DNA from: Thermoanaerobaculum sp.
Lineage (GTDB): Bacteria; Acidobacteriota; Thermoanaerobaculia; Multivoradales; UBA5704
Assembly: GCA_021154885.1 (NCBI GenBank)
Contig: JAJKHS010000089.1
Coordinates: forward strand, 1-62,517
Reading direction: 5' to 3'
DNA length: 62,517 nucleotides
In this document: piece after piece, positions 27,615 to 28,982 of the stretch
How the letters are laid out: each line of letters starts with the position of its first letter
How positions within the stretch are numbered: the first letter of the stretch is position 1
Notes under the pieces: generated by a model
Databases searched by the model: none
Seen by the model: the letters and a program-made list of their open reading frames with translations, nothing else
Told to the model about the DNA's origin: nothing
Position numbers and translations under genes: made by a program

Positions 27615-27744
27615 GCCTGCGCGGCAGAAGCCGAATACAAGGACAGCAAGGACACCAAGGACGTCAAGGACGAGGAAAGCTCCCGTCGCGGCGATCGTCT
27701 TCGTGTCCCTGCTGTCCTTGTTGTCCTTGCTGTCCTTGCTGTTG
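27615..27744. repeat. Dispersed hairpin repeat, ACAAGGACA family, copy 2
   Basis: It begins 3 bases after the potassium-channel stop with GCCTGCGCGGCAGAAG, the same left end as copy 1, followed by ACAAGGACAGCAAGGACA units, a GAGGAAAGCTCCCGTC spacer close to that of copy 1, and TGTCCTTG-type right-arm units. The right terminal inverted repeat of copy 1 is not present here. Confidence 0.78.
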
Positions 27745-28068
27745 CCACATCCGCCGGGCGGAGATGGAGGGTGGCGCCCCGCCCCGAGGAGCGTCACCCT
27801 CGTTCCAGACAGTGCGTGCGCAGGGGACGGCCCGCCTCCGTCCCCCTGGCGAGGATTCCCCGGCCGCCCCGGAACCGGCCGGAGAATCGGTTTGCATCAA
27901 TTGTCAAAGAGCACCGCCCACCGGCCGGAGCCGAAACAAGAGATCCGCCGGTCAGCGCTTGGTCCTGCAAGGTATTTCTACGAGCCGACCCCCTCCAACG
28001 TCTAGGCAACCTCGCTTGCGGCACTGCTCGCAGACGAAACACTTCGTGGAAAGCGAGGGTAGAAAGAA
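27745..28068. other. Gene-free region with a minus-strand leader-like structure
   Basis: About 320 bases without a convincing gene on either strand. The minus strand holds a weak promoter-like pair (TTGGAG at 27998-27993, 18 bases, TACCTT at 27974-27969), then a hairpin, a boxA-like motif at 27913-27895 and a second GC-rich hairpin (GATTC/GAATC plus CGGCC/GGCCG arms). Reading leftward it would run into repeat copy 2. Long plus-strand frames crossing the region lack coding character. Confidence 0.4.
27895..27913 (-). promoter_or_regulatory. boxA-like antitermination motif
   Basis: On the minus strand the sequence reads TGCTCTTTGACAATTGAT. The rRNA-leader boxA consensus TGCTCTTTAACA differs by one base in the core. 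BoxA binds NusB/NusE and normally lies in rRNA or CRISPR leaders; none is nearby. Confidence 0.45.
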
Positions 28069-28295: not shown

Positions 28296-28982
28296 ATGAG
28301 CACCATGGATCTCGACACAGCCGTCAAGCTGAACATCTACCAGACCCTCGCCGAGAAGGCTCAGGCTCCGTCTGCGGCGCAGGTGGCGAGGGCGCTCGGA
28401 GTGGCCGTCGAGGAGGTCGAGGCGGCTTTCCAAAGTCTTCACAGGAAGCGGCTTCTGGTTCCTGAGCCGGGAGACCCCTCCAGGATCCGGATGGCCCCGC
28501 CGTTCTCGGGCGTGGAGACGCCTTTCCGCGTCAAGGTGCGAGACAAAATCTACTCTGCCAACTGCGTCTGGGATGCCCTCGGCGTGCCGGCGGCCCTGCA
28601 CGCGGACGGCGTCGTCGAGGCTGCCGACGGCCACACCGGCGAGCCCATGACTCTGGAGGTGAGGGGCGGGAAGCCGGTGCCGCAGCCGTGCGCCATCCAC
28701 TTCGCCGTGCCGGCGGCGCGGTGGTGGGACGACATCGTCTACACCTGAGCCACCATGCTGCTCTTCCGGTCGGAAGAGACGGTGCGCCAGTGGTGCCGGG
28801 CGAACGGCGTTCCACGACGCCCCGTTCTCGACCTGGATCAGTTGTGGTATCTCGCGACGACCTGGTACGAGAACCGATTGACCGTCGAGTCCCGCCGTCC
28901 CGGTCCGGACGAGATGGTGGAGATCTTCGCGCGGATTGGATTGGAGGGGCCGTTCTGGGATCCGAAAGCGGATCGCTGGTAG
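28296..28982 (+). CDS. MerB-like (alkylmercury lyase family) protein with in-frame TGA at the catalytic Cys; candidate selenoprotein
   Basis: The frame runs 228 codons with one TGA at codon 151 (28746-28748). Residues 1-60 form a winged-helix-like domain (AAQVARALGVAVEEVEAAF). The MerB catalytic region follows: Cys90 and Asp93 in ANCVWDALGVPAAL, matching Cys96/Asp99 of the characterised plasmid R831b enzyme. Then comes DDIVYT-(TGA)-ATMLLFRSEE, where the family has Cys (Cys159 equivalent). The remainder up to WDPKADRW is the usual family C-terminus and stays open. ATG 28296 has AGGTGG upstream. MerB enzymes cleave carbon-mercury bonds; a selenol at this site is inferred. Alternatives are a recent nonsense mutation or sequencing error. 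A SECIS-like hairpin follows the TGA. Confidence 0.72.
28761..28778 (+). promoter_or_regulatory. SECIS-like hairpin downstream of the in-frame TGA
   Basis: CTCTTCC-GGTC-GGAAGAG is a perfect 7-bp stem with a 4-base loop whose first base is G. The loop begins 20 bases after the TGA. Bacterial SECIS elements have a small apical loop with G in the first two positions, 16-37 bases downstream of the UGA, so distance, loop and stem fit. The same bases code for LFRSEE, so part of the pairing could be coincidence, but the GAA codon needed for pairing is the rarer Glu codon in this GC-rich sequence. Confidence 0.6.

Follow-up and report, generated by a model that had tools for sequence, protein, structure and literature searches.

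MerB is the textbook enzyme for methylmercury cleavage, and the locus described here raises the question of how a TGA codon at one of the catalytic cysteine positions of a MerB-type gene is read, and what the resulting protein might do. The gene occupies positions 28296-28982 on the forward strand of a 62,517-nucleotide stretch of Thermoanaerobaculum sp. DNA (contig JAJKHS010000089.1; the whole stretch is called the window below) and encodes a 228-residue MerB-type protein when the TGA (codon 151, 28746-28748) is read through. This TGA is the only internal stop of the frame, which closes with a TAG at 28980-28982; an earlier note on this DNA had likewise reported no further stop or frameshift. 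Homologues favour the ATG of codon 4 (28305), where translation may start. Residues 1 to about 69 resemble LexA-type DNA-binding domains, residues 70-192 form the MerB domain and the remainder, to residue 228, is a C-terminal extension.

The MerB domain matches Pfam PF03243 with 95.6 bits (cut-off 27). The NCBIfam MerB equivalog cut-offs (NF009710/NF033555) were not reached, the scores being 33.9 of 193 and 26.4 of 200 bits. An AlphaFold2 model built with the window protein and eight relatives as input (pLDDT 92.7) was matched to the MerB fold by Foldseek with an E value of 5.8e-12. Its top solved match is mercury-bound MerB2 (5c17; VIA Z 18.8 over 187 residues, rmsd 3.2), while MerB crystal structures gave VIA Z values of 14.5-15.2 and the MerB NMR model 9.3; the next structural rows after MerB are the DNA-binding parts of LexA (63 residues, Z 5.2). 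In a profile of 28 homologues, Cys90 (TGC, 28563-28565), Asp93 (GAT, 28572-28574) and codon 151 fall on positions 96, 99 and 159 of solved MerB chains, and the MerB2 alignment agrees. The TGA thus stands in the column of the second catalytic cysteine and the other two catalytic residues are intact, both as first proposed from the window alone. Across the same 28 rows (alignment A1) Cys is present at 90 in 27 and Asp at 93 in 26. The column of MerB Cys117 holds Asp111 in the window protein and Cys in 19 of the 28 rows.

A scan of contigs from named genomes returned eight relatives with 39-65% identity, from Krumholzibacteriia, Caldithrix, Chloroflexota, Planctomycetota, Thermoanaerobaculia (Acidobacteriota), Eisenbacteria, Actinomycetota and one unassigned MAG, and all eight carry TGA at codon 151. 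We also sampled whole phyla. Of 396 genomes from the window's own phylum, 15 have the TGA form and 22 have any match; loci L049 and L050 of this sample could not be read as MerB genes at the column, L050 matching through its N-terminal helix-turn-helix stretch only. The phylum of the Chloroflexota MAG gave 15 of 301 (40 with any match; one of the 15, L072, has a C-terminal match only), that of the Actinomycetota MAG 19 of 296 and a broken gene besides (35 with any match; two of the 19, L110 and L111, are split between two frames) and that of the Planctomycetota MAG 2 of 246 (4 with any match). Weak matches without a returned locus fall mostly outside the codon reading of these samples, and 8 + 12 further regions were added. 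Fragments lacking the column, and the duplicate or unrelated loci L001-L020, L029, L051, L055, L088, L090-L092, L097 and L117, were set aside; the 101 rows readable at the column then comprise 63 TGA (a broken Rubrobacter gene, L054 = L127, being counted twice), 26 TGC, 11 TGT and 1 TGG, and no other codon. TGA therefore alternates with Cys codons at this column (63 against 37, with one Trp), a pattern that the earlier note had named as a check on its proposal. On a quick tree, in which 28 of 89 inner branches are starred, Sec and Cys require five changes, or six when Trp is included.

Two individual homologues deserve mention. The TGG row (L043:1492-2160, genome G167) also has its first Cys displaced (GCS for ANC) and has lost the hairpin described below; its lineage looks like one in which both metal ligands have been lost. 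The copy in Rubrobacter radiotolerans is broken (L054 on plasmid NZ_CP007515.1, and L127 in G756), and the merB annotated there is 89 residues long and stops exactly at the TGA, which illustrates how annotation treats such a codon.

A hairpin that we read as a bacterial SECIS element, CTCTTCC-GGTC-GGAAGAG, is found at 28761-28778 on the forward strand. Its arms (28761-28767 and 28772-28778) pair perfectly over 7 bp around a GGTC loop (28768-28771); it begins 12 bases past the TGA, exactly as first described, with 19 bases between TGA and loop. The bSECIS criteria, as given in PMC13188914, are an apical loop of 3-9 nt with a G among its first two positions, a stem of 4-16 bp, a distance of 16-37 nt from the UGA and an MFE of at most -7.5. 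The loop, the 7 bp and the 19 nt fall within these ranges, which upholds the proposed bacterial SECIS geometry, and the 48-nt stretch from the TGA has a predicted fold of -18.5 kcal/mol. Among the 1309 TGAs on both strands of the window this exact geometry occurs once, at codon 151, and a looser one (7 Watson-Crick pairs, loop 3-6, offset 10-23) occurs 20 times; of 200,000 resamplings of synonymous codons, 1386 (0.7%) rebuilt all 7 pairs. Taken alone, without its homologues, the hairpin is suggestive only.

It is more than a chance structure because it is conserved in the homologues. For these comparisons the broken Rubrobacter copy was dropped, leaving 61 of 63 TGA rows (60 distinct). Pairing is seen in 94.5% of cells, compared with 46-63% when the arms are slid by 1-3 columns; six of the seven pairs show two-sided changes, and the covariation score of 0.170 against 0.112 +- 0.009 in shuffles was reached by none of 500 shuffles, which ignore relatedness. 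The codons of the FRSE motif are frozen across phyla, with CGG in 57 of 58 rows (expected fraction 0.255), TCG in 59 of 61 (0.391) and GAA in 46 of 60 (0.248), the expectations being taken from codon usage in the same genes. An intact set of the inner six pairs is seen in 57 of all 63 TGA rows versus 1 of 38 others (Fisher p 4e-20, uncorrected for kinship). The suggestion that the hairpin would accompany only TGA versions hence holds for the family at large but gives way in two Cys forms that keep it, L045 with 7/7 pairs and L116 with 6/7. In two other Cys relatives, L104 and L105 (G716 and G731), hairpin and FRSEE motif have both been lost; the quick tree places these together with Sec forms in a group of 43 rows (support 85, not starred). 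Because the motif went together with the hairpin, FRSEE may in part be the imprint of an RNA element. Rfam has no match in 28600-28900, a result that says nothing either way. The pattern TGAN{9,18}TCCGGTCGGA was matched across the window's own genome at the codon-151 site only (1 forward, 0 reverse), so that this search showed the letters of the hairpin in no other gene of that genome; the control, with the pattern read backwards, gave 1 and 1 matches.

The window's genome (8.2 Mb in 161 contigs, with a completeness of 96.6%) also encodes the machinery for selenocysteine, and all four components named by the earlier note were located. The tRNA-Sec scores 67.3 bits in RF01852 and is given anticodon tca by ARAGORN; the line for tRNA-Sec was set at 60 bits, a 50-bit match in this genome being a tRNA-Ser. 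SelB lies over its cut-off (351.1 bits when neighbours in its frame are included), and SelA and SelD reach 451.8 and 331.6 bits. The selD gene itself (L018, G000:C8:12122-13054) has one in-frame TGA near its start (TTGG-TGA-AAKIGPGDL) and a predicted hairpin just 3' of it, making its product a selenoprotein candidate. A tRNA-Sec above 60 bits is absent in 3 of 23 TGA-form genomes (G026 51.0, G185 47.4 and G403 50.6 bits), possibly owing to incomplete assemblies. Correlating the TGA form with the machinery has no power in this sample, as the 9 comparison genomes without a MerB match (8 from the same order, 1 from the same class) also carry tRNA-Sec.

Three other readings of codon 151 have to be set against selenocysteine. 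The single internal stop of a gene that otherwise looks canonical could reflect a nonsense mutation, a pseudogene or a sequencing error in which TGA is really TGC or TGT, and the relative on the Rubrobacter plasmid (L054) is indeed broken. However, since the eight named relatives share the TGA and come from separately assembled genomes, a mistake in any single assembly does not account for it, which speaks against the correction of TGA to a Cys codon that would have undone the earlier proposal; with dozens of separate assemblies sharing the codon, purifying selection downstream of it and a covarying hairpin, we give this reading next to no credence. If the UGA were instead a true stop, a functional 150-residue product would result and the hairpin might regulate termination or mRNA stability; two of the three catalytic positions do lie within those 150 residues. 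Yet the codons past the TGA evolve as protein-coding: in 14 homologue pairs pN/pS is 0.12-0.46 over codons +12 to +68 past the TGA and 0.10-0.55 upstream (ungapped counts, with dS saturated in some pairs). The downstream values are like those upstream: the part 3' of the TGA (28749-28979) is translated and under purifying selection. Moreover, most of the relatives with Cys at the column have no hairpin, and a true stop is highly improbable. Finally, a suppressor or an altered code could read UGA as Trp or Cys. The homologue with TGG at the column (L043) would speak for Trp, but it looks degenerate, its first metal-binding Cys being displaced too, and 37 of the 38 non-TGA rows have Cys; with a Sec system present and a hairpin that fits the bSECIS model, this reading is very unlikely as well. 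Selenocysteine insertion at UGA 151 is thus supported by comparative sequence evidence.

In six loci TGA is found at both metal-binding cysteine positions (Cys96 and Cys159), and these are candidates for double-Sec proteins, new in this analysis. Five of the genes form the main double-Sec lineage: L071/L088, L086 and L087, three copies in one genome of the Chloroflexota sample (G540), and L121 (G914) and L115 (G924) from the Actinomycetota sample. Here position 99 is Asp in one and Glu in four, and the usual hairpin lies past the second TGA. Past the first TGA a 6-bp stem with a 5-nt loop can be drawn in 5/5 loci when G-U pairs are included, this being the best of many geometries scanned, with no null test. 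L085, the sister of this lineage, has kept Cys at 96. The sixth locus, L084/L090 (G414), is a separate gene with TGA at both positions, Asp at 99 and a TTCTTCTGGTCAGAAGAA hairpin.

What the protein does is a separate matter, and the genomic context gives little guidance. Its seven window neighbours encode a ketoacyl synthase, a zincin, a TrkA-domain protein, a 69-residue ORF without a match, a PMT_2 glycosyltransferase, a TetR regulator and an alpha/beta hydrolase, with no mer genes among the seven searched. Flanks of mostly 1.5 kb (up to 4 kb for L021-L028) yielded no useful recurring neighbour family among the relatives: the neighbourhood clusters are mostly the Sec-MerB gene itself and antisense frames over it, and the two that recur, at three loci each, presumably represent a GntR/MocR regulator and a DinB-like protein. 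By eye, short AAGGACAGC-type repeats followed by their reverse complements are seen at about 27639-27745 of the window, in the interval that separates the TrkA gene from the small ORF, and may possibly form one large hairpin.

It is conceivable, although we regard it as unlikely, that the Sec protein is real and is something other than an organomercurial lyase: its MerB scaffold might serve to carry a metal, for thiol/selenol redox catalysis or for the cleavage of other compounds such as organotin, organolead or organoarsenicals. Besides the missing mer neighbours, MerA lies over the cut-off in only 1 of 25 TGA-form genomes (2 of 9 others), the scores stay below both the MerB and the SaoL equivalog cut-offs, and the MerB-domain part is weakly similar to the copper chaperone NosL (Z 4.6 over 105 residues). 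On the other hand, 53 of 59 fully readable TGA rows have Cys, Asp and TGA at the catalytic positions, and the remaining six consist of five with TGA also at the first position and one with Cys and Glu; moreover, cleavage of organotin or organolead would still be MerB-type chemistry. The link between the TGA form and mercury is itself drawn solely from homology.

We return to the reading of the window protein as a MerB-superfamily selenoprotein with Sec at UGA 151, MerB-like organometal cleavage and a role in low-level detoxification, which as a whole we consider highly probable. SelB and Sec-tRNA would bind the hairpin past UGA 151 and selenocysteine would be inserted. In MerB, according to PMC4525700, the metal is held by Cys96 and Cys159 and proton transfer is aided by Asp99. 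By analogy, and judging from the conserved residues and the fold, Cys90 and Sec151 would hold the metal M of an organometallic substrate R-M, Asp93 would pass a proton to the carbon so that the C-M bond is broken, and the freed metal ion would be handed to cellular thiols. In the window's genome the best MerA match stays under the cut-off (385.6 of 454.45 bits), which would leave thiols or some other route for the removal of Hg(II); MerA-independent routes for Hg are discussed in PMC8261052. Since the gene has no mer neighbours and the genomes mostly lack MerA, it seems most likely that the protein acts on its own to detoxify low levels of organomercury or another organometal(loid), and that thiols accept the product. 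Compared with a thiolate, a selenolate is the better nucleophile, with a lower pKa and a higher affinity for soft metals. At position 159 it should also attack at lower pH, and it would let the enzyme capture scarce substrates or those poorly handled by a thiol MerB. Selone mimics of MerB are described as cleaving organomercurials faster than their sulfur analogues (PMC11639659). Tight binding by Sec might equally slow product release, in which case a metal trap or a different substrate is possible. Lyase activity and substrate are proposed here by analogy with MerB.

If the lyase reading holds, this would be a mostly non-redox use of Sec, which would act as metal ligand and as leaving group when the C-metal bond is cleaved. 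On balance we favour the view that a large, overlooked family of MerB-fold selenoenzymes is at hand, spread over at least seven phyla (as taken from record titles) and including double-Sec enzymes, which would place a selenium-based organometal lyase chemistry outside mer operons. A large MerB survey (PMC8261052) screened homologues for Cys at 159, and TGA forms would for this reason have been missed, so possible organomercury degraders may be undercounted. The natural Sec/Cys pairs and the double-Sec forms offer material for testing what selenium brings to such an enzyme.

A MerB-superfamily protein with selenocysteine is not without precedent. One such family is SaoL, reportedly from Haft and Gwadz in 2023. 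SaoL (NF040728) is listed as a MerB-like selenoprotein with motif CU in a 2026 review (PMC13188914), and an alkylmercury lyase MerB-like selenoprotein in PMC9312934 has the same example accession. The reviews credit earlier work, and the main texts of PMC2398784 and PMC5029168 contain neither 'MerB' nor 'lyase'. The earlier note could not say whether such a Sec form had been described; within the open PMC literature searched, we found no description of Sec at MerB Cys159 or of a double-Sec MerB, but SaoL shows that a Sec-containing MerB-like family had already been listed.

The window protein can be placed against these known systems. With MerB it shares the fold, the equivalents of Cys96 and Asp99 and a third metal ligand at the position of Cys159, and it differs in having Sec in place of Cys at 159 and Asp at the Cys117 column, in its identity of about 20%, its own C-terminal extension and scores below the equivalog cut-offs, and in its setting away from mer genes. 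MerB2 (5c17) has Ser at the Asp99 position and Cys at that of the TGA, whereas the window protein keeps the Asp. SaoL is likewise a Sec-containing MerB relative, and its profile weakly matches residues 27-126 of the window protein, but with only 33.5 of the 140 bits set as NCBIfam cut-off (30.8-51.9 bits in four relatives). The SAO operon has Sec-containing ABC transporter genes; a search of the seven flanking window ORFs showed no ABC-transporter domain. Unlike in the tabulated CU motif, Cys precedes the TGA in none of 62 rows, its place being taken by T, N, A, R, M or F; the separation from SaoL is thus one of profile score and tabulated motif rather than of the SaoL sequence. By the features compared, the window protein is a member of the MerB superfamily that is neither a canonical MerB nor a SaoL.
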